64,000 nt of DNA, taken from positions 1 to 64,000 of the forward strand of contig NZ_REFZ01000011.1 in assembly GCF_003841465.1 (NCBI RefSeq), read 5' to 3'. Source of the DNA: Natrarchaeobius oligotrophus. Lineage in GTDB: Archaea > Halobacteriota > Halobacteria > Halobacteriales > Natrialbaceae. Position numbers and translations under genes: made by a program. Below, one piece after another: positions 35,875 through 53,291 of this stretch. Positions within the stretch are counted from its first letter, which is position 1; each line of letters starts with the position of its first letter. The notes below the pieces were generated by a model. It was not told the origin of the DNA. It worked only from the letters and a program-made list of their open reading frames with translations, and did no database searches.

Positions 35875-36891
35875 TTATTCGCGGATAGTCTGCATCTGCT
35901 CTTCGTCGTACAGAATGCACCGTGCTTGCTGGTCGTCTCCCGTCTCGTACATGGGCGGTTCCTCGACGGTACACTCGTCAGTCGCCTCCGGACACCGAGG
36001 TGCGAATCGACAGCCGGGAGGCAGGTTCACCGGATCGGGGATGTCGCCTTTCAACTCGACCGCCTCGCGTTCGTCGTCGGGATCGATCGTCGGCGTCGAG
36101 CCGACCAGCGCCTTCGTGTACGGATGTTGTGGGTCGTTGATGACCTGCGTCGCCGGCCCGACCTCGACGAGTTTCCCGAGATACATGATTCCGATGCGAT
36201 CGCACATGTGTTTCAACAGCGAGAGGTCGTGGCTGATGTAGAGGATCGAAATGTTGAGTTCGTCTTGCAGCCGATCGAGCAGGTCGAGAATGCTGGCGCG
36301 AACGCTCACGTCAAGCATGCTCGCCGGTTCGTCCGCGAGGATGAACGACGGCTCGAGAATGATCGCACGCGCGATGCTCACGCGCTGGCGCTCCCCGCCG
36401 CTGAGTTCGGAGGGGTACTCGTGCATGTAGGCTTCCGCGGGATTCAGCCCGACGCTCTCGATGGTCTCGATGACCCTGGTCTCGCGTTCTTCCTCCGATC
36501 CGATGTCGTGAACGTCGAGCGGTTCTTTCACCCAGTCGAAGACGCGATAGCGCGGGTTGATCGATTCGTACGGATTTTGCTGGATGATCTGCGCCTCGGT
36601 ACGAAAGTTCATCTCGTCGCGCACCGCCGGATCGGTGATCTCTCGTCCGTCGAACGAGACGGTACCAGACGTCGGCTCGTGGAGGTGGAGTAACGACTTC
36701 CCACAGGTCGTCTTTCCACACCCGCTCTCGCCGGCCAGACCGAACGATTCGCCCTCTTCGATCTCGAACGAAACGCCGTCGACGGCTTTCACGTACTCGA
36801 TTTCACCCCACCCGAAGAGGCGGGTGAACATGTCCTCGTTCGACTTGAAGTGTTTCTTCAGATCGTCGACTTCGATTTTCGGACTAGTCAT
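35875..36891 (-). CDS. Oligopeptide-type ABC transporter ATPase (DppF/OppF type)
   Basis: This 338-residue ATPase is the last gene of a four-gene minus-strand operon. Walker A is GESGCGKTT, the ABC signature LSGGERQRVSIARA and Walker B FILADEPASM, where Met replaces the commoner Leu/Ala after the Ser. The C-terminal oligopeptide-transporter domain has the Cys-rich CRFAPRCPEATDEC iron-sulfur-like motif with a later Cys (ARCIL). It overlaps the DppD-type gene by 8 nt. Such transporters carry peptides but in haloarchaea often sugars, and the nearby FGGY kinase favours a carbohydrate. Confidence 0.88.
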   Translation of the reverse strand: MTSPKIEVDDLKKHFKSNEDMFTRLFGWGEIEYVKAVDGVSFEIEEGESFGLAGESGCGKTTCGKSLLHLHEPTSGTVSFDGREITDPAVRDEMNFRTEAQIIQQNPYESINPRYRVFDWVKEPLDVHDIGSEEERETRVIETIESVGLNPAEAYMHEYPSELSGGERQRVSIARAIILEPSFILADEPASMLDVSVRASILDLLDRLQDELNISILYISHDLSLLKHMCDRIGIMYLGKLVEVGPATQVINDPQHPYTKALVGSTPTIDPDDEREAVELKGDIPDPVNLPPGCRFAPRCPEATDECTVEEPPMYETGDDQQARCILYDEEQMQTIRE

Positions 36892-37930
36892 CGGCTTCCT
36901 CCGCCACCTGTTGGGGTTCGGTTTCGAGGTCCATCCAGGTTTCTTTGCGTTTGGCTTCCTCGGTCAGTAGTTCCTGTTCGTCCGCTCTGTGACACTCGAC
37001 GACGTGTCCGTCGCCGTACTCCTCCGGTTCGGGCGTGACGTCCCAGCACTCGTCGGTGGCGAAGGGACATCGTGGCGCGAACCCACACCCTTCCGGCGGC
37101 TCGACGAGATCCGGCGGCGTTCCGGGAATCGAGATCAGGTCCTGATCGTCCTCTTCGATGTCGGGGAACGCGTTGCGGAGGCCGAGCGTGTACGGATGGC
37201 GCGGCTCTTTGATGATCGTCTCGACGTCGGCGTGTTCGACGACGCGACCCCCGTACATGACGGCGATCTCGTCGCAGATGTCGGAGACGACCGAAATATC
37301 GTGCGTGATGAGGATCACGCTACTTTCGATCTCTTGCTGGAGGTCTCGAAGCGTCTGTAAGATCCGGTCCTGGATCACGACGTCGAGCGCAGTCGTGGGC
37401 TCGTCGGCGATGATGAGCGACGGATCGAGCGCGAGCGCGAGCGCGATCATCGCCCGCTGGGCCATTCCGCCCGAGAACTGGTGGGGATAGTCGTCGATCC
37501 GGCCGGGATCGATACCGAGCTGTTCGAACAGCGCTCGAGCCCGCTCTCGAGCCTCGCCCTTCGAGACGTCCTCGTGCGTTCGGATCGCCTGAACGATCTG
37601 GTTCCCGACGGTGTAGACGGGATCGAACCCGTTCATCGCGTTCTGGGGAACCATCGAGATCTCGTCCCAGCGGATCTCCGTTCGGAACTCCCTGTCGCTC
37701 AGCTCCGTCAGGTCGGTTTCCTTGTACTCGATGGCACCCTCCGGAACGTGGCCGTTTTTCGCCAGCAGCCGGATGATCGCCTTCGCGAGCGTCGACTTTC
37801 CGGAGCCGCTTTCGCCGATGAGACCCAGTATCTTGTTCTCCTCGAGGGAGATACTGACGCCGTTGACGGCGTGGACGGACCCGTCGCCTTCCATCTCGTA
37901 TTCTACGTGAACGTCGGTTAGCTCTAACAT
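36884..37930 (-). CDS. Oligopeptide-type ABC transporter ATPase (DppD/OppD type)
   Basis: This 348-residue ATPase shows Walker A GESGSGKST, the signature FSGGMAQRAMIALALA, Walker [13 protein letters not shown] and the C-terminal four-Cys motif CGFAPRCPFATDEC...VVECH. The signature Gln-Arg pair is preceded by Ala rather than the usual Arg/Lys (GGMAQR for GGMRQR), a common variant. The start at 37930 (MLELTDVHVEY) is family-typical and sits 5 bp after the permease gene stop; the longer open frame upstream overlaps that permease. Confidence 0.88.
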   Translation of the reverse strand: MLELTDVHVEYEMEGDGSVHAVNGVSISLEENKILGLIGESGSGKSTLAKAIIRLLAKNGHVPEGAIEYKETDLTELSDREFRTEIRWDEISMVPQNAMNGFDPVYTVGNQIVQAIRTHEDVSKGEARERARALFEQLGIDPGRIDDYPHQFSGGMAQRAMIALALALDPSLIIADEPTTALDVVIQDRILQTLRDLQQEIESSVILITHDISVVSDICDEIAVMYGGRVVEHADVETIIKEPRHPYTLGLRNAFPDIEEDDQDLISIPGTPPDLVEPPEGCGFAPRCPFATDECWDVTPEPEEYGDGHVVECHRADEQELLTEEAKRKETWMDLETEPQQVAEEADD

Positions 37931-37935
37931 TGGTA

Positions 37936-38865
37936 TCAGTGTCGAATTTCGGGGTTCGTTATCTCCTCGAGCGTTCGACCGATGAAGAACACCGACGAGA
38001 CGAGCAGCATGATGCACACTCCTGCCGGCAGGACCCACCACCAGGCATCACGAATCGCGCCGTGCGTGTACGCCTGGTACATCATCCGACCCCAGGAGTA
38101 GACGTTGGGGTCGCCGAATCCGAGGAACGCGATGCTCGCCTCGTACATGATCGCGTACGCGACCGCAAACGCCATGTAGAGGACGGTCAGCGGGAGCACG
38201 TTCGGGAATACGTGCCGATAGAGGATTCGGAAGTCGCTCGCACCGATCGCCCTCGCGGACTCCACGTACGGTCGTTGTTTCTGTGATAGCACTTCGGAGC
38301 GAACGACACGCGCCGAGTCGCGCCACAGGATCGCGGCGATGACCAGCATGATGTTGACGATGTTCGCACCGAAGATGAACACGAGCACGATCACGAACGG
38401 GAGGAACGGAAGCCCGTACGCGATGTCGACGATGCGCATCAGGATGTCGTCCACCCAGCCGCCGTAGTAGGCGCTGATGAGGCCGACGTTCGTTCCGATG
38501 AAGACGGCGATGAACGCCGCGAGGAATCCGACGAACACGGAGACGCGAGCGCTCACGAGCAGTTGCGAGAGAACGTCCTGTCCGTGGTGTGTCGTCCCGA
38601 GGAGGTGATCCGTAGACGGCGCGTCCAGCCGGGCCAGCGAGCCGTCGTCTCGTCGGTGACGAGCCCCCGGACTGTACGGCGCGATGATCGGGGCGAAGAT
38701 CGCGATGAAGACGAACGCCGCGAGCACGACGATGCCGAACTGTCCGAGCCGGTCCGACCGGTACAGTTCGTAGGCGGTCGAGACGCCGTCTTTGATCTGA
38801 CTGAACACGCGACTCGAGGTCAGCTTCGATTCGACGTTGGCTGGAAGGTGTTTTTTCACACTCAT
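37936..38865 (-). CDS. Oligopeptide-type ABC transporter permease (DppC type)
   Basis: This 309-residue permease has a hydrophilic N-terminus of about 40 residues and six membrane spans. DppC hallmarks are HLLGTTHHGQDVLSQLLVSA and the coupling helix YVESARAIGASDFRILYRHVFPN. It is separated by 1 bp from the DppB-type gene upstream and 5 bp from the ATPase downstream. It forms the channel with the DppB-type subunit. Confidence 0.9.
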   Translation of the reverse strand: MSVKKHLPANVESKLTSSRVFSQIKDGVSTAYELYRSDRLGQFGIVVLAAFVFIAIFAPIIAPYSPGARHRRDDGSLARLDAPSTDHLLGTTHHGQDVLSQLLVSARVSVFVGFLAAFIAVFIGTNVGLISAYYGGWVDDILMRIVDIAYGLPFLPFVIVLVFIFGANIVNIMLVIAAILWRDSARVVRSEVLSQKQRPYVESARAIGASDFRILYRHVFPNVLPLTVLYMAFAVAYAIMYEASIAFLGFGDPNVYSWGRMMYQAYTHGAIRDAWWWVLPAGVCIMLLVSSVFFIGRTLEEITNPEIRH

Positions 38866-38866
38866 A

Positions 38867-39844
38867 TTAATCGTACCTCACTCGTGGATCGAGATAGACG
38901 TACGCGAGGTCCGCCACGAAGTTCATCCAGATCACGAGACTTCCCATGAGGAAGAAGATGGCCTGGGCGAGCGGATAGTCGTTGTAGGTGACCGATTCGA
39001 CCATCTCCCGGCCCATTCCCGGCCAGCTGAAGACGGTTTCGATGACGAGCGATCCGCCGATCGACATGCCCACGACCAGCGCGACGACGGTCGTCATCGG
39101 GAGGATCGAGTTCCGGGCAGCGTGTTTGTAGAGGATGATGTACTCGGGAATGCCCTCCGCTTTCTTTATCTGGATGAAATCGGAGTTGAGCACGTTGATC
39201 ATACTACTGCGCATGAGCAGCGTCGGCGTCGCCATGTAGTAGATGACGCCGGTCAACACCGGAAGCACGAGGTGGTAGGCGACGCCCCAGTTTAGATACC
39301 TGCCGAGGAACGTCTCGTACTCGGTTCCGGGCGGGCGTATTCCGCCGGACGGGAACCATCCCAGATAGAACGTAAACACCATGAGCAGGAGGATGCCGAT
39401 CCAGAACTCAGGGGAGGACCGAGCGATCAGCGTCACGACGATACCGGTTTTCTCCTTGCGGGTGCCGCGCACCCAGCCGATGAAGGCCCCCACGGTCACG
39501 CCGATCAGGTACGCGATGGCGAACGCGAGTCCCATCAGGATGATCGTGTTGAAAAATCGAACGACGAGAACGTCCCAGACGGGCACGCCGTGGCGAAACG
39601 ATTGGCCGAGGTCGCCGGTGAGGTACTGCGTCATGTACTCGACGTACTGGATGTGTAACGGTTGATCCAGACCGTGACGAGCAAGTATCGCTTCGCGTTC
39701 CTCCGCACTGAGTCCTTCCTGGAGGTACATCGACGTCGGATCGCCGGGCGCGAGCCGAAAGACGACGAACAGGAGAGTCAGAAACGCCCAGTAGGTGACG
39801 ATCAGTTGGCCGATACGGCGGACGACGTATTTTTTGAGGCTCAT
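38867..39844 (-). CDS. Oligopeptide-type ABC transporter permease (DppB type)
   Basis: This 325-residue, first gene of the operon has six spans. The N-terminal KYVVRRIGQLIVTYWAFL anchor, the long loop containing PLHIQYVEYMTQYLTGDLGQS and the coupling helix IQIKKAEGIPEYIILYKHAARNS identify DppB. No substrate-binding protein gene precedes it. The nearest unpaired one is the unusual protein at 42919-44646 on the opposite strand, which may be the partner. Confidence 0.9.
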   Translation of the reverse strand: MSLKKYVVRRIGQLIVTYWAFLTLLFVVFRLAPGDPTSMYLQEGLSAEEREAILARHGLDQPLHIQYVEYMTQYLTGDLGQSFRHGVPVWDVLVVRFFNTIILMGLAFAIAYLIGVTVGAFIGWVRGTRKEKTGIVVTLIARSSPEFWIGILLLMVFTFYLGWFPSGGIRPPGTEYETFLGRYLNWGVAYHLVLPVLTGVIYYMATPTLLMRSSMINVLNSDFIQIKKAEGIPEYIILYKHAARNSILPMTTVVALVVGMSIGGSLVIETVFSWPGMGREMVESVTYNDYPLAQAIFFLMGSLVIWMNFVADLAYVYLDPRVRYD

Positions 39845-40103: not shown

Positions 40104-41558
40104 TTACGCGATCTCCGCGACGGTTCGCTCGAGAGCGTCGTCCCACTCCGACGTGTTTCGCGGCTCGTAGTAGTCGAAGTCGACGTTCTCGTCGACGATC
40201 TCGCGTCCCTCCTCGTACGATTCGATCTCGCCGCTCGCGTTACACTGCGACAGCAGATTCCCGATCGCCGTCGCCTCGGTCGGGCCGGCTTTGACCTCGA
40301 GACCCGTCGCCGACGCGACCAGCTGACAGAACAGCTCGTTTTCCACGCCGCCACCGACGAGGTGGAGCCGATCCGTGTACGTCTCGGCGGCGGCCATCAG
40401 CCGCTCGAGGACGAGCGCGGTTCGGATCGCGAGGCTCTCGAGCAGACACCGGGTGATCTCGCCTTCGGTCTCCGGAACCGGCTGGTCCGTGTCGGCGCAG
40501 TAGGTTTCGATCGCTTCGACGACGCCGCCTTCGGCCTGTGCCTCGAAGAATAGACCGTCGAGCGGATCGACGATCGACCGGAACGGCTCTGCGTCGCGCG
40601 CCCCGGCGATCAACTCGTCGTACCCGTAGCGGCCACCGGTCTGGCACCAGGTGTCGCGGCAGTGCTCGAGGAGGCTGAACCCTGGCATGTTACGGATGTA
40701 CCGGATCCGTCCACCGACGCTCAGTTCGTTCGACGAGGGTACGTCGAACGCGGCGTCGTCGATCACCGGCTCGGCCAGTTCGAGGCCGGGGATGAACCAC
40801 GAGCCGGTACAGAGGAAGCCGGGACTTCCGGGTTCGAACGGGATCGCCGCCATCGCGGCCGACGTGTCGTGACTCGGTGCGAGATAAATGTCCGTTTCCC
40901 CGGAAAACGATTCGGACAGCGACGGATCCACCGATCCGATTTGGGTGCCGGCGTCTGCCAATTCGGGAAGGACGTCGGTCGGGAGGTCGAGTTCCGAAAG
41001 CAGGTCAGTCGCCCACTCTCCCGTCCGAATATCCATCGCCCGAAGCGTCACGCCGAAGCTCGTCTCGCCGACGGGCTCCGCTCCGAGCTTCCAGGAGAGC
41101 AACTGGGGAAGCATCACCAGCTCGTCCGCCCGTTCGAACGACTCCGGATCCTCGTGGAACTGGTAGTAGTACGAGTTCGGAACGCCGTGGTGGCCGGTTC
41201 TGCGAAAGATTTCCCGCCGCGGGACGCGCTCGAGCAGTTCGTCCTCTTTCGAGTACAGCGACTGATCCAGGTAACAGTACGGATCCGACTGTAATTCGCC
41301 GTCCTCGAGGAGGCCGAAGTCGCCGGCCGTCGTGTCGATCGCGATCGACGACACCGATCCAGCTTCCTCGATCACTGACTCGAGTCCGGCCACGATCTCT
41401 GCCGTGAGATACTCGACGTCCCAGATCAACCGTCCGTCGACCTCCGTCGGGCTCGTCTCGAACCGATAGGCCTCGGTCACGTCCAGTTCGCCGCCGAGGC
41501 GTCCGTGATAGATTTTTCCGGTACTCGATCCGATGTCGATCGCGACACGGCTGGACAT
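40104..41558 (-). CDS. FGGY-family carbohydrate kinase, rhamnulokinase-like
   Basis: This 484-residue sugar kinase begins SSRVAIDIGSSTGKIYHG, the ATP phosphate-1 motif of FGGY kinases. IAIDTTAGDFGLL and the following DPYCYLD resemble the RhaB substrate region, although the usual DSWGVDFG is changed to DTTAGDFG with the catalytic-region Asp retained. LHLVGGGVENELFCQLVASA is the adenosine-binding motif and TEATAIGNLL the C-terminal signature. It presumably phosphorylates a ketose such as a 6-deoxyhexulose. The start at 41558 lies 26 bp from TATA-like GTTATAGA (41581-41588). The nearby aldolase, triosephosphate-isomerase-like and aldehyde dehydrogenase genes could complete the pathway. Confidence 0.82.
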   Translation of the reverse strand: MSSRVAIDIGSSTGKIYHGRLGGELDVTEAYRFETSPTEVDGRLIWDVEYLTAEIVAGLESVIEEAGSVSSIAIDTTAGDFGLLEDGELQSDPYCYLDQSLYSKEDELLERVPRREIFRRTGHHGVPNSYYYQFHEDPESFERADELVMLPQLLSWKLGAEPVGETSFGVTLRAMDIRTGEWATDLLSELDLPTDVLPELADAGTQIGSVDPSLSESFSGETDIYLAPSHDTSAAMAAIPFEPGSPGFLCTGSWFIPGLELAEPVIDDAAFDVPSSNELSVGGRIRYIRNMPGFSLLEHCRDTWCQTGGRYGYDELIAGARDAEPFRSIVDPLDGLFFEAQAEGGVVEAIETYCADTDQPVPETEGEITRCLLESLAIRTALVLERLMAAAETYTDRLHLVGGGVENELFCQLVASATGLEVKAGPTEATAIGNLLSQCNASGEIESYEEGREIVDENVDFDYYEPRNTSEWDDALERTVAEIA

Positions 41559-41580
41559 GGCTCGAAGCAGGGAGGGAAGG

Positions 41581-41588
41581 TCTATAAC
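41581..41588 (-). promoter_or_regulatory. TATA element for the FGGY kinase gene
   Basis: GTTATAGA on the minus strand is centred about 26 bp upstream of ATG 41558. Confidence 0.45.
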
Positions 41589-41625
41589 TATTCCCATTAC
41601 CGCCGAAACGAGGGCGAGCGAACGG

Positions 41626-42918: not shown

Positions 42919-44646
42919 ATGCGGAAGAGTAACAGCGATGGGAAGAGTGTTGTTGGTGCGAGTCGTCGATCGGTGCTCAAGGCTGCGGGTGCATCGGGCG
43001 TTGCAGTCAGTCTCGCCGGCTGTACCGGGTTTTTGGGGGGCGAAGACGGCGACGCTCCGGTCACGGAGTACGGCGTCGAACTGACCGACGATCCGGCCGG
43101 CGAGCCGTGGGAGGAAATCGACTACCTGACGACGCCGGAAGACGTCAGTCCGATCCGGTACACGTACGCGAACCTCCACGCGGAGTACCTCGAGGAACTC
43201 GGCTTCGACGTCTCCGTTCGCGCGCCGAGCATCCCCCAGTACGTCGACGACGGCTTCGTCCACCGCGACTTCGATATCTACGTCGTTCGACAGCTGGACG
43301 GCTGGGATCCCGACCGGTACCTCCACGACGCGTTCCACTCGTCCGCCCTCGCGGAGGGTGAGGTGAACATTTCGGGCTACGACAACCCCGAGTACGACGA
43401 GATGGTCGAACAACAGCGACGGGAAACCGACTTCGAGGCCCGCCGCGACCTCGTCTTCGAGATGCAAGAGCAGCTGATGGAAGAGCAGATCATCTCGCCG
43501 ATCCTCGTCCAGAACCGCGTCATGGCGTACAACTCGGATCGGTACCAGAACGCCTACTCGGGTCCCGAGGAGGGTCTCGGACGGTTCTGGAACTTCCTCA
43601 ACATCGAGCCGACCGACGAGGGCGACGAGACGCTCGTCTTCTCGCAGATCAGCGACGTGAACACGCTGAACCCGCTCAGCCCGGAGCGCGTTCGCGTCGA
43701 GCGCGGGATCATCAAGCTCATGTACGACCGGCTGATGCGGATCCCGGAGGACGAAGTCGTCCCGCAGCCGTGGATGGCCGAATCCGTCGACCAGGAGGAC
43801 GAGACGACGGTCGTCGTCACGCTGCGAGACGATCTGCAGTGGCACGACGGAGAGGACGTCACGGCCGAGGACGTCCGGTTCACGTTCGAGTACGGTCAGG
43901 AGCACTCCTCGACGATCGAAAGCCAGCTCGAGCCGTTGGACAGCATCGACGTCGAAGACGACCTCACCGTCGTTTTCAACTTCGACGAGCCGATGGCGAC
44001 GTTCGAGACGTTCCTCGCCGGACGAAACGGATCGATCCTGCCCGAGCACGTCTGGTCGGATTACCCCGACGCCCTCGACGTGGAGACGGTCGGCGAGTTC
44101 ACGAACACGGACGATCCAGTCGGCAGCGGTCCGTTCCAGCTGACGAGCTTCGAGGGCGGCGAAGAGCTCTCGCTCGAGCGCTTCGACGGCTACTTCGAGC
44201 AGCCGAACGTCGACGAAGTGATCAGGATCGAGTCCGCCGACACCCGAGGCATGGTGAACGCCCTCGAGGACGGAACGTCCGACATGGTTCCCTGGGAGCT
44301 CGCGCCCGAGGACATCGAGCGCTTCGACGACGGCGACGAGTTCGAGACCGTCGACGCGTTCATGACCTCGATCCACTACGCGTGTTACAACATGCGCCGC
44401 CACCCCTACGACAGCACGGAGGTTCGGCGCGGACTGGCATACGCCATCCCCAAGCAGGAAGCCGTCGAAATCGCGACGGCCGGAACCGCGGAAGTGATCC
44501 AGGCGCCGATCTCCCCCGCGCTCGAGGAGTGGTACAACGACGACGTCGAACACTTCAACCTGGATCTGGAAGCCGCCGCCCAGGAACTCGAAGCCGCCGG
44601 CTGTGAGTGGGACCAGGACGGTCGCATCCACATGCCGCCGCAGTAA
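42919..44646 (+). CDS. Family-5 ABC substrate-binding protein with apparently circularly permuted domain order
   Basis: This 575-residue Tat lipoprotein has SRRSVLKAAGASG at residues 15-27 and lipobox LAGC with Cys35. Residues about 51-230 look like the C-terminal third of a DppA/OppA-type protein: a new strand after a lobe crossover, then WDPDRYLHDAFHSS, SGYDNPEYDEMVEQQRRETD, RRDLVFEMQEQLMEEQIISP and a closing VMAYNSDRYQN. From about residue 236 the canonical N-terminus follows: TLVFSQISDVNTLNPLSP, YDRLM, PWMAESV, LRDDLQWHDGEDVTAEDV. It continues through lobe II and stops at DLEAAAQELEAAGCEWDQDG, where the normal protein would continue into the part found here at the N-terminus. The frame is uninterrupted. 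It probably partners the dpp-type transporter at 35.9-39.8 kb. Confidence 0.85.
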   Translation: MRKSNSDGKSVVGASRRSVLKAAGASGVAVSLAGCTGFLGGEDGDAPVTEYGVELTDDPAGEPWEEIDYLTTPEDVSPIRYTYANLHAEYLEELGFDVSVRAPSIPQYVDDGFVHRDFDIYVVRQLDGWDPDRYLHDAFHSSALAEGEVNISGYDNPEYDEMVEQQRRETDFEARRDLVFEMQEQLMEEQIISPILVQNRVMAYNSDRYQNAYSGPEEGLGRFWNFLNIEPTDEGDETLVFSQISDVNTLNPLSPERVRVERGIIKLMYDRLMRIPEDEVVPQPWMAESVDQEDETTVVVTLRDDLQWHDGEDVTAEDVRFTFEYGQEHSSTIESQLEPLDSIDVEDDLTVVFNFDEPMATFETFLAGRNGSILPEHVWSDYPDALDVETVGEFTNTDDPVGSGPFQLTSFEGGEELSLERFDGYFEQPNVDEVIRIESADTRGMVNALEDGTSDMVPWELAPEDIERFDDGDEFETVDAFMTSIHYACYNMRRHPYDSTEVRRGLAYAIPKQEAVEIATAGTAEVIQAPISPALEEWYNDDVEHFNLDLEAAAQELEAAGCEWDQDGRIHMPPQ

Positions 44647-44896: not shown

Positions 44897-46189
44897 ATGT
44901 CAGAACCCGCCGCATCGGAACTGATCGAGTTGCGTCGACGGCTCCACGCGTATCCGGAACCGTCGTGGTGTGAGTTCTACACGACGAGCAGGCTGGCGGA
45001 TCGCGTCGAAGAGATCGGCGTCGACGAGGTGATCGTCGGCCGAGGGGCGATCGATCCGGACGAACGTCTGGGCGTTCCCGACGACTCGAAACTGGAGCGG
45101 TGGTACGACCGCGCCGTCGAGAACGGTGCACGTGCCGACCACCTCGAGTCGATGGACGGCGGAACGACCGGATTGGTCGCGATCCTCGACCGGGGTCCGG
45201 GCCCCGTCGTCGGCCTTCGCGTCGATATCGACGCCCTGCCGTTCGAGGAGTCGACCGAACCGGATCACGAGCCGGCGGCCGAGGGATTTCGATCGGAGAA
45301 CCCGGGCGTGATGCACGCCTGCGGTCACGACGCGCACACGGCGATCGGAATCGGCGTCCTCGAATCGCTCGCCGACGCGGCGTTTTCGGGGACGCTCAAG
45401 GTCTTCTTCCAGCCCGCCGAGGAAGTTCTCGGCGGCGGACGCGCGATGGCCGCGACGGACCACGTCGACGACCTCGACGCGTTTTTCGCCGTCCACGTCG
45501 GGTTGGGCCATCCGACCGGAACGGTCGTCGCGGGAAGCACCAAACCGCTCGCACTCCGGCAGTCGCGGGCGACGTTCGCCGGCGAGTCCGCACACGCCGG
45601 TCTGGCTCCGAACGAGGGACGAAACGCGATGCAGGCGATGGCGACGGCGATCCAGAACGTCCACGCGATACCCCGGCACGCGGACGGACTGACGCGGGTG
45701 AACGTCGGCAGCGCGCGGGCGGGGACCGCCTCGAACGTCGTCGCCGACGAGGCGACGCTCGAACTCGAAGTCCGGGCCGGCACGAACGACGTTCTCGAGT
45801 ACATGTCGACGCACGTCGACCGGATCCTCCGGGCGGCCGGGGAGATGCACGACTGCGAACTCGAGACCGAGGTGACCGGTCGGGCACCGCGCGTCGACAG
45901 CGACCCCGAACTCGCCGGTCTGGTCGAGACGGTCGCACAACGGACGCCGGGCGTGGACTCGATCGAATCGCACGCACCATTCGGCGCGAGCGAGGACGCG
46001 ACGTACTTCATGCGACGTGTCTCCGATCGCGGTGGCCACGCGACCTACGTCGTCGTGGGGACCGACCATCCGAGCGGTCATCACACGCCGGGGTTCGACG
46101 TCGACGAACGGAGCATCGAAATCGCGACGACGCTGTTGAGTGACGCGATCGGGGACGTTCTCTCGGAGGTCGCGTATACCAGCCACTGA
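44897..46189 (+). CDS. M20-family amidohydrolase, AbgA-like
   Basis: This 430-residue dinuclear-zinc peptidase/amidohydrolase starts with IELRRRLHAYPEPSWCEFYTT, a signature of the aminobenzoyl-glutamate utilisation protein A branch. The insertion carrying RWYDRAVENGARADHLESMDGG is also AbgA-typical. Metal-binding MHACGHDAHTAIG, FQPAEEV with the catalytic Glu and the final HHTPGFDVDE with the last His ligand are intact. AbgA-type enzymes cleave N-acyl or p-aminobenzoyl-glutamate-like amides. No AbgB gene is adjacent. It is cytoplasmic and follows a binding protein gene on the same strand, so its substrate may be imported by that system. Confidence 0.85.
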   Translation: MSEPAASELIELRRRLHAYPEPSWCEFYTTSRLADRVEEIGVDEVIVGRGAIDPDERLGVPDDSKLERWYDRAVENGARADHLESMDGGTTGLVAILDRGPGPVVGLRVDIDALPFEESTEPDHEPAAEGFRSENPGVMHACGHDAHTAIGIGVLESLADAAFSGTLKVFFQPAEEVLGGGRAMAATDHVDDLDAFFAVHVGLGHPTGTVVAGSTKPLALRQSRATFAGESAHAGLAPNEGRNAMQAMATAIQNVHAIPRHADGLTRVNVGSARAGTASNVVADEATLELEVRAGTNDVLEYMSTHVDRILRAAGEMHDCELETEVTGRAPRVDSDPELAGLVETVAQRTPGVDSIESHAPFGASEDATYFMRRVSDRGGHATYVVVGTDHPSGHHTPGFDVDERSIEIATTLLSDAIGDVLSEVAYTSH

Positions 46190-47425: not shown

Positions 47426-49576
47426 TCAGTCCGAATCGACCCGCTCGCCACCGCCGGAGTCGGCCCGTTCGACGCCGTCCGCTCGCAGATCCTCCCGCAA
47501 TTTGCGCTGTCTTTCGATGACGTCCGAAACGTCCGCCTCCTTGTCCGCCATCACGCCCTCGTCGAACAGGAGACACGAGACGAGGTGTCCGTCGTCGAGC
47601 GCTTTCGACTCCGGCGGCGTTCGTTCGCACTCCGGCATCGCGTGAGGACACCGGCTGTGGAACCGGCAGCCGGACGGCGGGTCGGCGGGATCGGGAAAGT
47701 CACCCTCCGGTTCGATTCGCGTGCTCTCTTTTCCGGGGACCGGCCTCGGAATTGACGAGAGCAACACCTCCGTGTACGGGTGGTACGGCGGATTGAACAG
47801 TTGATCGACCGTTCCGATCTCGACGATCTCGCCGAGATACATCACGGCGATCCGATCCGAGATGTGCTGGACGACGTTCAGGTCGTGTGCGATAAACAGG
47901 TACGACAGGTCGTACTCCTCTTGAATGTCCATCAGGAGGTTGAGAATCTTCGCCTGGATGCTGACGTCGAGGGCGCTGACTGGTTCGTCCGCGATGATGA
48001 AATCGGGCTCGACGGCGAGGGCCCTCGCGATCCCGATGCGCTGTTTCTGGCCGCCGCTGAACTCGTGTGGGTACCGGTCGAGATGACTCTCGTTGAGTCC
48101 CACCTCGTCCAGGAGTTCCCGGACCCGGGCCTTCTTTTCGGCCTCGTCGTCGACGAGGCCGTGAATCTCGAGCGGGCGGCCGACGATCTGCTCGATCGTC
48201 TTCCGGGGGTTGAGACTCGAGAACGGATCCTGAAAGATCACCTGAATGTTCGAGCGCTCGGTTTTGAGCTGGCGCTTGTTCATCTCGGTCAGGTCGTTGC
48301 CGGCGTAGAGAATTCGTCCGTCGTCGGGTTCGTGGAGGTGCGCGAGCGTCTTTCCGAGCGTCGACTTTCCACACCCGCTCTCGCCGACGAGACCGAGCGT
48401 CTCCCCGCGTCCGATCGACAGGTCGACGTCGTCGACGGCGCGGATGTACTCGCCGCGTCCCAGCAACTCGTCGATCCAGCCCGAGGAGGTCGAAAAGTAC
48501 TTTTTGACGCCCTCGGCCTCGAGCAGCGGATCGGCGGATTCGCCGGTCCGATCGACGGACGCCGACTCGCTTTCGGTCGTCTCCGAGAACTCCGGTCGCA
48601 ACTCGAGTTCGTCGGCCCGGATACACGCCGTCGCGTGCTCCTCGCCGACGCCGCCGAGCGGCGGTTCCTCCGTTCGACACTGCGGTTCGTCGTAGGGACA
48701 GCGCGGGTGGAACGAACAGCCGGTCGGCGTCTCGATCAGGTCGGGCATCTGTCCCCGGATCGTCGGGAGCCGGTCGCGCGGATCGTCGATCTTGGGAATC
48801 GCCTCGAGCAGCCCCTTCGTGTAGGGGTGGTTCGTGTTCCGGAAGATGTCCTCGACCGGACCCGTTTCGACGAGTTTGCCGGCGTACATCACGCCGAGGC
48901 GATCGCACATCTGAGCGACGACTCCCATGTTGTGGGTGATGAGCTGAACGGCGATGTCGCGTTCGCGCTGGAGTTCGCGCAGCAAGCTCAGGATCTCCGC
49001 CTGAATGGTGACGTCGAGTGCGGTCGTGGGCTCGTCGGCGATGATCAGGTCCGGCTCACAGGAGATGGCCATGGCGATCATGACGCGCTGGCGCATCCCG
49101 CCGCTGAGCTGGTGGGGGAAGTGGTGGACGCGCTCTTCGGCGTTCGGAATCCCGACTCGATCCAGGAGATCGATCGTTCGCTCGAGCGCCTCCTCGTCGG
49201 TCGCGTCGGTGTGGTTCTGGATGACGTCGCCGATCTGCGTCCCGACGGTGAACGACGGGTTGAGCGCGCTGAGCGCGTCCTGGAAGATGACCGCGATGTC
49301 GTTTCCGCGAACCGACCGGAGCTCGTCGTCCGACAGCGAAAGCATGTCCCGGCCGTCGAAGTAAATTTCGCCGTCGGTGATCCGGCCGGGGGACTGGACG
49401 AGATCGAGGATCGACAGTCCGGTGACCGACTTCCCGGCACCGCTTTCACCGACCACGCCGAACACCTCTCCCGGGTAAACGTCGTAGCTGACGCCGTCGA
49501 CCGCGTGAACGACGCCGTCCTCGGTCCGAAACTCGGTGTGTAGATCCCGGACGCGAAGCAATGGCTCCGAACTCAT
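47426..49576 (-). CDS. Fused DppD-DppF-type double ATPase of an oligopeptide-type ABC transporter
   Basis: This 716-residue protein contains both nucleotide-binding subunits in one chain. Domain 1 (about 1-335) has [35 protein letters not shown] and the Cys motif [14 protein letters not shown]. After an acidic Ser/Glu-rich linker (about 336-360), domain 2 (about 361-690) has [34 protein letters not shown] and [14 protein letters not shown]. In domain 1 the Walker A Ser is followed by Val where Thr is usual in other copies. The other system in this window encodes the two ATPases separately. It overlaps the DppC-type permease gene by 4 nt. Confidence 0.9.
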
Positions 49577-50481
49577 AGTCCACCCGTCGTGTCGGTATCC
49601 ACGTCAGTCTTCGGATCGAGCGCGTCGCGCAGTCCGACGCCAAGGAACGTGAGACCGAGCACCGTGCTCATGATCGCCAGTCCCGGGAAGATGCTGATCC
49701 ACGGCGCAGTCTGGAGGTTCCGTTGGCCTTCGCTGATCATCACGCCCCACGTCGGCGTCGGCGGCTGGGCACTCAATCCGAGGTACGACAGCCCCGCCTC
49801 CGCGAGGATGGAGAACGCGAAGATGATCGTGGCCTGGACCATGACCGCAGAGACCATGTTCGGCAGCATCTCCCGGAACATGATGTTGAACGAGTGTTCG
49901 CCGTAGGACTTCGCCGCGAGAACGTACTCCTCCTCTCTCACCGAAATCGCGCTCCCCCTCGTGATACGGGTCATGATGGGTGCGAACGCGATACCCAGCG
50001 CGAGAATGATCTGGTTCAGGCCGGGACCGAGGATCGCGACGACGATCAACCCGAGCAGGATGTTCGGAAACGCGAAAAAGACGTCTACGGTTCGGCTGAT
50101 CGCTTCGTCGACCCACGACCGGTAATAGCCGGCGACCAGTCCGGTGACGACGCCAGTGACCGTCGCGATCGTCACGACCGCCGCGGCAACCTGGAGGCTG
50201 ATTCGGGTTCCGTACAGCACGCGCGAGAAGACGTCGCGTCCGTACCGATCCGTCCCGAACGGATGTTCCAGGGTCGGCGCCATCAGGCGGCGCGCTCCGT
50301 CGGTCGAACCGGGGTCGTGTGGCATGAGTAACGGGGCGAGGATGGCGACGACGAGGTAGATGAGAGAGAAGTACAACCCGACCATGGCCAGCTTGTTCCG
50401 CTTGAATCGGGCGTAAATCCGACGATATCGGGCGTTTTTGTCCAGGTAGCCCTGTATGTACCCGCCGACGAACGGTATCAT
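49573..50481 (-). CDS. Oligopeptide-type ABC transporter permease (DppC type)
   Basis: This 302-residue permease has six spans and a 25-residue basic N-terminus (RRIYARFKRNKLAM). HPFGTDRYGRDVFSRVLYGT and the coupling segment YVLAAKSYGEHSFNIMFREMLPN mark it as DppC. It is first in a minus-strand pair with the fused ATPase and divergent from the DppB-type permease gene, an unusual split of a normally co-directional operon. Confidence 0.9.
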   Translation of the reverse strand: MIPFVGGYIQGYLDKNARYRRIYARFKRNKLAMVGLYFSLIYLVVAILAPLLMPHDPGSTDGARRLMAPTLEHPFGTDRYGRDVFSRVLYGTRISLQVAAAVVTIATVTGVVTGLVAGYYRSWVDEAISRTVDVFFAFPNILLGLIVVAILGPGLNQIILALGIAFAPIMTRITRGSAISVREEEYVLAAKSYGEHSFNIMFREMLPNMVSAVMVQATIIFAFSILAEAGLSYLGLSAQPPTPTWGVMISEGQRNLQTAPWISIFPGLAIMSTVLGLTFLGVGLRDALDPKTDVDTDTTGGL

Positions 50482-50572
50482 AGACGAAGTATGAAAATAG
50501 AGGGAGATATGTCTTTTGGAGGAGCCGACATCCCTAGACTTATCGTCTCCTGGTGTGATGCTACCACGTCAG
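50482..50572. promoter_or_regulatory. Divergent promoter between the two permease genes
   Basis: The spacer separates DppC (minus) and DppB (plus). AT-rich elements are CTATTTTC on the minus strand near 50503 and ACTTATCG on the plus strand near 50541. Joint control of both transcription units from here is likely. Confidence 0.45.
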
Positions 50573-51520
50573 ATGAGTTGGACACAGTATGCGATAAAAC
50601 GGACCCTCTCCAGCGTTTTCGTCCTGTTTGGGGCATCTGTCGTCATCTTCTCGATCGTGCGGTTGATCCCCGGCGATCCGGCGCAAGTGTTGCTCGGGGA
50701 CACCGCTCGAGAGCAGCAACTCGAGGTCGTCCGTCGCGAACTCGGCCTTCACCGTCCCGTCTGGGAACAGTATTTCATCTGGCTATCGGACGTGCTGACG
50801 CTCGATCTGGGGCGGAGTTACATGAACAACCAGTTGATCACCGAGTTGCTCGCGATCCGGTACCCGCGCTCGCTGCAACTCGCGGTACTCACGATGATCC
50901 TCGCGACCGCGATCGGCGTTCCGCTGGCCATCTGGGGGGCGAGCAACCGCAACACGTCGAAGGACTACGTCGCGCTGTTTTTCTCCCAGTTCGGCGTCTC
51001 CATTCCGAGTTTCTTCCTCGGCGTCGTCCTCATCCTGCTGTTTGCGAATCTCATCCCCATCTTCCCGCCGTCGGGCTATCACTCCTTTTTCGATCATCCG
51101 CTGGCGAACTTCGTTCACCTCGTTCTTCCCGTCGTAACGCTCACCGTGATCAACGCGGCGATCATCACGCGCTACCTCCGCTCTGAGATGCTCGAGAATC
51201 TCAACTCCGAGTACGTCCAGACGGCGCGAGCGTACGGCCACTCCGAGCGGCGCATCGTGTTGAAGTACGTCGCGAAGAACGCGCTGATCCCGACGATCAC
51301 GGTGATCGGCATCCAGTTCGGCGGCATCATCGGCGGCGTCGTCATCATCGAGGAGGTGTTCTCGTACCCCGGTATCGGGCTGTTGTTGCTCGATTCGATC
51401 CTGCGTCGGGACTACCCCGTGATTCAAATGTCGCTGCTCGCCATCGCCGCCACGTTCATCGTCGTCAACCTGATCGTCGACCTCGTGTACGGCTATCTCG
51501 ATCCGCGGATCAGACACTGA
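50573..51520 (+). CDS. Oligopeptide-type ABC transporter permease (DppB type)
   Basis: This 315-residue permease has six spans. MSWTQYAIKRTLSSVFVLFG is the usual N-terminal anchor, PGDPAQVLLGDTAREQQL the conserved external loop, and YVQTARAYGHSERRIVLKYVAKN the coupling helix. An upstream ATG at 50558 would add five residues. It is divergent from DppC and the ATPase, and 148 bp upstream of the binding protein gene on the same strand. Confidence 0.9.
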   Translation: MSWTQYAIKRTLSSVFVLFGASVVIFSIVRLIPGDPAQVLLGDTAREQQLEVVRRELGLHRPVWEQYFIWLSDVLTLDLGRSYMNNQLITELLAIRYPRSLQLAVLTMILATAIGVPLAIWGASNRNTSKDYVALFFSQFGVSIPSFFLGVVLILLFANLIPIFPPSGYHSFFDHPLANFVHLVLPVVTLTVINAAIITRYLRSEMLENLNSEYVQTARAYGHSERRIVLKYVAKNALIPTITVIGIQFGGIIGGVVIIEEVFSYPGIGLLLLDSILRRDYPVIQMSLLAIAATFIVVNLIVDLVYGYLDPRIRH

Positions 51521-51637
51521 CCGGCGCTCGGTATCGGCCGGTTCGTTCGGACGATTTTTTCGACGGCTCCTTTCACGCAATCTCGATCGACGGGGAAGGC
51601 TAATTTTCGCCTCTCGAGGGGCGAATCGGACAGGTAC

Positions 51638-51644
51638 ACTTATT
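51638..51644 (+). promoter_or_regulatory. TATA element for the canonical binding protein gene
   Basis: ACTTATT is centred about 28 bp upstream of ATG 51669 and supports that start over GTG 51645. Confidence 0.45.
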
Positions 51645-51668
51645 GTGAACGTCTCGCATTTTCACCTA

Positions 51669-53291
51669 ATGGCGACTAACCGTCGTTCCGACCGCGAGGT
51701 CACAGAACTGAACAGGAGACAGGCACTCACACTGCTCGGTGGAGCGGGGAGTGCGGCGATGCTGGCAGGTTGTCAGGATATCGGCGACGACGACGGCGAC
51801 GGATCGACGCTTCACGTGCAACTCGGCGGATCGCTCGACTCGCTCGATCCCCAGCTGGCAGGCCTGCGAAACACGCAGGTCGTCGTGAACAGGGTGGTCG
51901 AAAAGCTGTTCGAGCCCGACCTCGAGATGGAGATGCAGCCGGTACTCGCAGAAGAGTACGAGCTGACGGACGACGGCGGTTCCGTGATCATCCAGCTTCG
52001 CGAAGGCGTCCAGTTCCACCCGCCGTACGAGCGCGAGATGGTCGCCGAGGACGTGGTCTACAACTTCGATCGCGTGTCGGACCCGGATACGGGGTCGCCC
52101 CGCCAGGACAACTTCGACAACCTCGAGGACTGGTACGCGGAAGGCGACCACGAGCTTCGAATCGACTTCGAAGAGCCGGAACCCGCACTGGAAGCGACGC
52201 TCGCGAACACCGGCATGCACATCCTCTCGCCGGACGCCCTCGAGGAAGAAGGTGACGCCTCGAGCCATCCGGTCGGGACCGGCCCGTTCGCGTTCGAGGA
52301 GTGGGTCACCCGAGACTACATCCATCTCGTCGCACACGACGAATACTGGGTCGACGGCGTTCCCGGCGTCGAAGAAGTGTACTTCAGGCCGATCGAAGAG
52401 CCGGCGACGGCGATCACCGAGATTCAGGAGGGCGAAATCGAGATGCTCCACGACGTGCCGCTGGACAACGTCGGACAGCTCGAGGACGACGACGACGTCG
52501 AGGTACAGTTCGTCGAAGCGCCGGACCTGCGGTTCCGGATGATGGTCAACGCCTCCGACAACGAAATCGACGGCCGCGCACCCGGCGCACCTACCCAGAG
52601 CCAGAACATCCGTCAGGCGATCGCGGAGGCGATCGACCAGGAGGACTTCGTCGAGATCGCAGCGGGCGGCCACGCCGAGGTCGGTCAGACCGTCTATCCG
52701 GAGGACAACGTCTGGGGCGTCGACTACCAGCCGTTCAGCGTCAACGCCGACCCCGACCGCGCGCGGGAGCTGATCGAGGAATCCGAGTTCGACGAACCCG
52801 TCGAGCTCACCATGATCTCCGCGTCGGACGAAGACGACCTGCGAACGCTCGGTCAGCTGGCACAGGACCAGCTGAACGACGCCGGATTCGAGGTCGACCT
52901 CGAGGAGATGGAGATCGCCTCGTGGGTCGAGCGGTTGAACGCCTTCGAGTGGGACATCACGCCGAACCACGGCTCGCACAGCCCGGACCCCGCGCTCAAA
53001 CGGTTCGAGCGGATGTTCTGGACCGACGAGGAGAACGTCCCGTACTACGACAGCCCCGACTCGAACGCAGATCGCGTCTTCGAGATCTTCGAGGAGGACA
53101 GCACCGACCTCTCACAGGAGGAACGCTACGAGCTGTACGCGGAGTTCCAGCGGCTCCTCTGTGACGACGCGGTGTACCTCATCTGCTGTCACCCGCAGAA
53201 CGCTCACGCGCTTCGGACGTACGTCGAGGACTTCGAAATCCACCCGATGGACATGTACTTCCCCGTGCACAACGCTCGACTCGAACACTAA
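51669..53291 (+). CDS. Family-5 ABC substrate-binding protein (canonical order)
   Basis: This 540-residue Tat lipoprotein has NRRQALTLLGGAGS at residues 15-28 and Cys35 in LAGC. The order is canonical: LHVQLGGSLDSLDPQLAG, then LFEPDL, VLAEEYELTDDGG, LREGVQFHPP; lobe II with HPVGTGPFAFEEWV and MLHDVPLDNVG; and the return strand ELTMISASDEDDLRTLG leading to the C-terminal lobe I segment. It serves the divergent DppB/DppC/fused-ATPase transporter. It is the natural reference for the permuted protein at 42919. Confidence 0.9.
   Translation: MATNRRSDREVTELNRRQALTLLGGAGSAAMLAGCQDIGDDDGDGSTLHVQLGGSLDSLDPQLAGLRNTQVVVNRVVEKLFEPDLEMEMQPVLAEEYELTDDGGSVIIQLREGVQFHPPYEREMVAEDVVYNFDRVSDPDTGSPRQDNFDNLEDWYAEGDHELRIDFEEPEPALEATLANTGMHILSPDALEEEGDASSHPVGTGPFAFEEWVTRDYIHLVAHDEYWVDGVPGVEEVYFRPIEEPATAITEIQEGEIEMLHDVPLDNVGQLEDDDDVEVQFVEAPDLRFRMMVNASDNEIDGRAPGAPTQSQNIRQAIAEAIDQEDFVEIAAGGHAEVGQTVYPEDNVWGVDYQPFSVNADPDRARELIEESEFDEPVELTMISASDEDDLRTLGQLAQDQLNDAGFEVDLEEMEIASWVERLNAFEWDITPNHGSHSPDPALKRFERMFWTDEENVPYYDSPDSNADRVFEIFEEDSTDLSQEERYELYAEFQRLLCDDAVYLICCHPQNAHALRTYVEDFEIHPMDMYFPVHNARLEH

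Follow-up and report, generated by a model that had tools for sequence, protein, structure and literature searches.

The gene at 42919-44646 of the window, by which we mean the whole 64,000-nucleotide stretch of Natrarchaeobius oligotrophus DNA analysed here, raises the question of whether a substrate-binding protein (SBP) can carry the two arms of its fold in reversed order and still serve an importer. Few proteins in microbiology have been studied as thoroughly as the ABC binding proteins, and members of cluster C, the DppA/OppA type, have to our knowledge been assumed to have one common chain order. The first-pass annotation of the locus proposed a natural circular permutation, and our analysis supports this reading: the gene is confirmed to encode an SBP_bac_5 protein in which the canonical C-terminal third lies ahead of the N-terminal two-thirds. 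With a probability of roughly 90%, we consider the product to be a lipid-anchored, naturally permuted cluster C (SBP_bac_5) SBP that is predicted to feed solute to an OppBCDF importer encoded from 39844 down to 35875.

The reading frame lies on the + strand and, as originally annotated, is open throughout, from the ATG at 42919 to the TAA at 44644-44646. The encoded chain runs from a signal with lipobox (Cys35) through the canonical C-arm and a short junction to the canonical N-arm. The Tat/lipobox call stands as far as the sequence pattern goes, in that a twin-arginine-type signal and lipobox (SRRSVLKAAG...LAGC; 42919-43023) are recognizable, although the Pfam TAT_signal score of 15.4 bits falls below the cut-off of 22.7. 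Residues 36-61 (43024-43101) form a linker from the lipid anchor to the fold's new N-terminus, delimited by sequence and by low pLDDT over residues 1-44 of the predicted structure. There follow the canonical C-terminal arm, placed first (residues ~62-232, 43102-43614; located by an HMM of canonical proteins only and by the match to AppA, 1xoc), the junction between the old C-terminus and the old N-terminus (residues ~233-234, 43615-43620; a few-residue gap between HMM hits, with pLDDT in agreement), and the canonical N-terminal arm (residues ~235-567, 43621-44619; PF00496 positions 2-285 and the same HMM). The switch had been placed at about residue 231-236, which is correct to within a few residues. 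The chain ends in a loop after the helix DLEAAAQELEAAGC, with the new C-terminus (GRIHMPPQ) and stop codon occupying 44620-44646; its C-terminal end reads GCEWDQDGRIHMPPQ. An internal comparison is available on the same strand, where the SBP_bac_5 protein encoded at 51669-53291 matches Pfam positions 1-353 of 368 in a single stretch and thus has the canonical order ascribed to it.

The homology of the front portion to the C-terminal third of DppA/OppA-type proteins is the point on which a permutation would stand or fall. In the native chain, Pfam PF00496 scores 199.8 bits (gathering score 32.4) with positions 2-285 at residues 282-569, and the first 236 residues alone give a weak match, positions 291-364 at residues 70-142; when the chain is re-ordered to canonical, a single match to positions 2-364 of 368 scores 209.7 bits. 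The comparison HMM, for which no proteins but those of canonical order were used (E. coli DppA, OppA, NikA and GsiB with haloarchaeal and other bacterial proteins), finds the C-arm as HMM 334-467 at ORF positions 78-215 with 75.5 bits and the N-arm as HMM 5-328 at ORF positions 243-572 with 250.9 bits, the ORF numbering here being the protein numbering plus 8. The re-ordered chain matches in one piece, HMM 7-467, with 332 bits, in keeping with the annotation's remark that the protein stops where a canonical chain would continue into the stretch found at its front. This behavior is general: the C-arms of all permuted ORFs (138 records, of which a few are duplicate copies) score 34.6-99.2 bits with a median of 74, compared with a maximum of 7.9 bits among 690 shuffled C-arms, and 136 of the 138 re-ordered chains form a single domain over more than 400 of the 488 HMM positions.

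Profile-profile alignment likewise returns two swapped pieces, one per arm, with E values of 1.2e-62 and 1.6e-20. Searched against the PDB as a single sequence, the protein matches DppA, AppA, Lmo0135 and others in two separate stretches whose order is swapped, and a profile made with 32 relatives gives the same result; for AppA (1xoc), profile positions 220-543 align to 23-345 and positions 48-187 to 359-495, the latter with an i-E of 3e-17. Among the PDB matches listed, no chain was colinear with the permuted order. The PDB profile search, the profile-profile alignment and the canonical-only HMM together rule out a non-homologous N-terminal domain, including for the N-terminal ~180 residues on which one of the annotation's refutation tests was to bear. 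Hence, homology extends over the whole two-lobed fold of the SBP_bac_5/cluster C family, C-terminal third included, and is accompanied by an export signal and lipobox by pattern; what departs from the family is the N-to-C order, since the C-arm precedes the N-arm. The NCBIfam equivalogs (NikA, DppA, Opp4A and others) did not reach their cut-offs, the best being 147.7 bits against 600 for Opp5A_nikA.

Structure prediction suggests that the swapped arms constitute one confidently predicted protein. An AlphaFold2 model based on a 32-row alignment has a mean pLDDT of 85.4 and a pTM of 0.83, and in the 10-residue blocks where the old termini meet (residues 221-240) pLDDT is 91-92. Searched with Foldseek, this model matches SBP_bac_5 structures with a sequential TM of ~0.5 over ~355 columns, the value expected of a permuted chain under an order-dependent method, with which a single arm at most can align.

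As long as this reading was based on one sequence, and that from a draft genome of 69 contigs, it was reasonable to ask whether an assembly error or a one-off rearrangement had produced the unusual order. Two congeneric genomes, however, share both the chain order and the gene order (94% and 84% identity), excluding an error at the junction, and all 80 loci returned by an independent scan of GTDB species genomes are permuted; the chance that the arrangement is an artifact of this genome is now negligible. Furthermore, 46 of 61 related genomes contain a match that is colinear through most of both arms (hand count), and the genome from which the window comes encodes several permuted paralogues alongside canonical SBPs. 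The 80 loci come from haloarchaea and from Pseudomonadota (for example Halomonas socia, Natronospirillum operosum, Stappia indica and Paracoccus), Bacillota (Oceanobacillus halotolerans, Evansella halocellulosilytica and Natroniella sulfidigena), Actinomycetota (Enemella evansiae) and further bacterial phyla, with Spirochaetota, Chloroflexota, Deinococcota, Atribacterota and Thermodesulfobacteriota represented by metagenome bins only. The chain order is conserved in more than 100 genes. To profile tools these proteins appear as no more than partial SBP_bac_5 matches or as matches in two pieces, and plasmid copies among the matches listed are annotated merely as 'ABC transporter substrate-binding protein'. 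The permuted SBPs thus form a large multi-phylum class that has apparently gone undescribed.

It is also worth considering how such a chain could have arisen. Plausibly, a tandem duplication of one ancestral gene was followed by loss of the ends, so that the old N- and C-termini, neighbors in the canonical fold, would have become joined by a few residues. A second copy of either arm was sought in 127 permuted ORF records, both as a duplicated intermediate and as an extra C-arm left hidden as a remnant of duplication, and none was found. This result could also be expected had the arms come from two different SBP genes by fission and fusion, and the tandem SBP genes of haloarchaea could recombine; yet the two arms add up to precisely one whole fold, with hardly anything, if anything, missing or in excess where the chain was cut, and we regard a two-gene fusion as rather unlikely compared with permutation of a single gene. 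In the divergent permuted SBPs L029 and L030 the arms overlap by ~20 canonical positions at the breakpoint, and a short overlap is seen in some Bacillota members as well. These overlaps could be duplication remnants or, equally, the two strands of a loop hairpin; because they fit a loop hairpin suggested by the NikA sequence, we do not claim them as remnants.

The window also encodes the inferred partners of the permuted SBP, all on the - strand: an OppB-type permease (38867-39844; family match, permease clade and adjacency), an OppC-type permease (37936-38865; family match and synteny), an OppD-type ATPase (36884-37927; family match and synteny) and an OppF-type ATPase (35875-36891; ABC_tran and oligo_HPY domains). 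The SBP gene and this oppBCDF operon are divergent and ~3 kb apart, separated by genes for a VOC protein, a UPF0047/YjbQ protein and an FGGY kinase, and the layout is conserved in two congeners. Because oppBCDF and the SBP gene are not transcribed together in this genus, we pair them by their proximity, by synteny and by the clade of the permease. Elsewhere the linkage is tighter: 68 of the 80 loci have an OppB/OppC-type permease on the SBP's own strand no more than 5 kb away, mostly directly downstream of the SBP and followed by ATPase genes, so that proteins of the same order do occur beside permease operons, where the annotation had suggested looking. In a tree of OppB-type permeases, 67 of the 68 from permuted loci, the window's OppB among them, fall into one clade with a support of 100 (hereafter the clade of class A, the window protein's class), and the single exception, L082_737, probably comes from a neighboring operon. 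The window's DppB (50516-51520, + strand), which adjoins the canonical SBP at 51669-53291, lies outside this clade among the permeases of canonical proteins. The permuted class therefore has its own membrane permease clade. Sampling from the permease side in haloarchaea gives a similar picture, as in 61 relatives all 28 of the best OppB hits (at least 38% identity) are no more than 3.4 kb from a permuted-type SBP colinear with that of the window and, over all hits, 31 of 38 are.

Separate transcription could also mean that the permuted protein is an orphan sensor or receptor and not the binding protein of an importer. Consistent with this, several Natrialbaceae loci (L109, L111, L113, L116, L119, L121, L124 and L129) hold tandem pairs of permuted SBPs with no OppB/OppC within 5 kb, which are apparently orphans. 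Nonetheless, the same-strand permeases at 68 of 80 loci, together with an oppBCDF operon in the window that has no other SBP gene, make a sensor role improbable. Most likely, judging from homology and linkage, the permuted SBP would bind an extracellular solute between its two lobes, in the usual cleft, and pass it on to the divergently encoded OppBCDF.

Several features of these operons stand apart from the question of pairing. The canonical Dpp system of the window (47426-53291) is split over both strands, with DppB and the SBP on the + strand, while the - strand encodes DppC and an ATPase of 716 aa in which two domains are fused; the congener L182 has this layout too. In Halomonas socia, the OppC-type permease beside the permuted SBP (L062:7584-9317) has ~290 extra residues between the first membrane segment and the permease core; the insert has a repetitive look and by eye resembles propeller-type repeats, and the only Pfam families assigned are OppC_N and BPD_transp_1. 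A similar spacing from the B to the C permease gene, ~2 kb, is seen in ~20 bacterial loci (L060, L063, L064, L067, L070 and others). In the same Halomonas species, a gene for a binding protein of the DctP family (TRAP-type) is situated upstream of the operon with the permuted SBP (L062:1763-4585 for this side observation), and a GntR/FCD regulator gene separates the two.

Neighboring genes point in two directions as to the solute and do not fix it. An FGGY-family carbohydrate kinase gene (40104-41597, - strand; domain match) lies upstream of oppBCDF on the same strand, in a position kept in two congeners, and suggests a sugar substrate. Downstream of the permuted SBP is a gene for an M20 peptidase/amidohydrolase-type enzyme (44897-46189, + strand; domain match), its position likewise kept in two congeners, and the M20, M29, creatininase and amidohydrolase genes that neighbor permuted loci suggest amide-type substrates. 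Of the ligand residues of DppA, R383 (mature 355) is conserved neither in the permuted SBPs nor in NikA, OppA and GsiB, and around D436 (mature 408) the alignment has too many gaps to be of use.

The location of the cut has implications for how the protein is held at the membrane. In canonical cluster C proteins both termini are in domain I and the chain crosses the hinge twice. When the HMM arm ends are converted to DppA numbering, the class A cut corresponds to about mature residues 341-353, a segment that we take to be part of domain III, the second lobe. Two connecting strands have been described for cluster C proteins, and R355 of DppA, near the class A cut, has been assigned to domain I (PMC8566422). 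If the cut does lie in domain III, the new termini would have arisen in a loop at the surface of the second lobe, and the lipid anchor of the haloarchaeal and Bacillota members would be on the lobe opposite to that of canonical proteins; the adaptation of the permeases is then probably matched to the relocated tether. A lipobox pattern is present in most haloarchaeal relatives. Many Gram-negative members (Proteobacteria, Spirochaetota) have plain signal peptides without a lipobox, and we rejected tether relocation as a general cause of the permutation on these grounds.

Comparison of the breakpoints reveals two classes. In class A the cut falls at about canonical HMM 328-340, after a helix with the pattern DxxxAxxxLxxAGY. 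In class B (L036 and L161-L169; n=10, all haloarchaeal) it falls at about 305-320, ~20 residues earlier, preceding this helix, which therefore sits at the N-terminus. Each class is a single group in a 90-row tree of re-ordered SBPs (SH-aLRT 97 for A and 100 for B), in which class B groups with the canonical haloarchaeal proteins L033 and L173 (SH-aLRT 96). DppB, DppC and ATPase genes adjoin the SBP in all 10 class B operons. The permeases of these operons make up a clade of their own (100), which is nested with canonical-associated permeases in a 14-row set (95) and stands apart from the class A clade. Structure prediction for class B (pLDDT 51, 10 sequences) was too poor for use. It is conceivable that one permutation gave rise to both classes and that the breakpoint later shifted across the one helix, and the AU test, run on an SBP tree of 38 rows, fails to reject a joint clade of A and B (p=0.50). 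However, the two breakpoints flank that helix, which would still call for a second rearrangement, and both the permeases of class B and its place in the SBP tree point away from class A; we think a single origin doubtful. The differing breakpoints and permease lineages make two independent permutations the likeliest account, and permutation in cluster C has probably arisen two or more times, a point that the protein tree does not decide by itself. We lean, with some reserve, towards a fuller picture in which two independent permutations flank one second-lobe helix and one of them gave rise to an importer class that spans several phyla and is inherited along with a permease clade of its own, its SBP possibly held or docked in reverse.

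It is informative to set these proteins against known systems. The permuted SBP resembles AppA, DppA, OppA and NikA (cluster C, PF00496) in both arms and in its Opp/Dpp operon partners; it differs from them in its permuted chain order, in having its termini in the loop after the DxxxAxxxLxxAGY helix and in its distinct permease clade. The nearest parallel comes from Treponema pallidum, whose TpMglB-2 (Tp0684) is likewise an ABC binding protein with a natural permutation and for which the designation 'Type Ic / Cluster Bc' was proposed; it was reported to bind D-glucose with a change of shape, its permuted part has little sequence similarity (13% identity), and the authors discuss a link with membrane tethering (PMC4990184). 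The feature common to both is the circularly permuted chain: TpMglB-2 has a cluster B sugar-binding fold and another breakpoint, whereas the window protein matches cluster C in sequence and Foldseek searches and has two clearly homologous arms. CIRPIN found natural circular permutations computationally in SCOPe and AlphaFold clusters, and its text makes no mention of solute-, substrate- or periplasmic binding proteins or of ABC transporters (PMC12667903). The openly licensed literature that we searched contained no report of a permuted SBP_bac_5 protein.

With its altered chain order and its own permeases, a class spread over several phyla amounts to a natural experiment that can tell which properties of the chain matter in folding, in closure of the hinge and in docking. 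Class B, with its other breakpoint, would show that the fold tolerates repeated permutation in one region.
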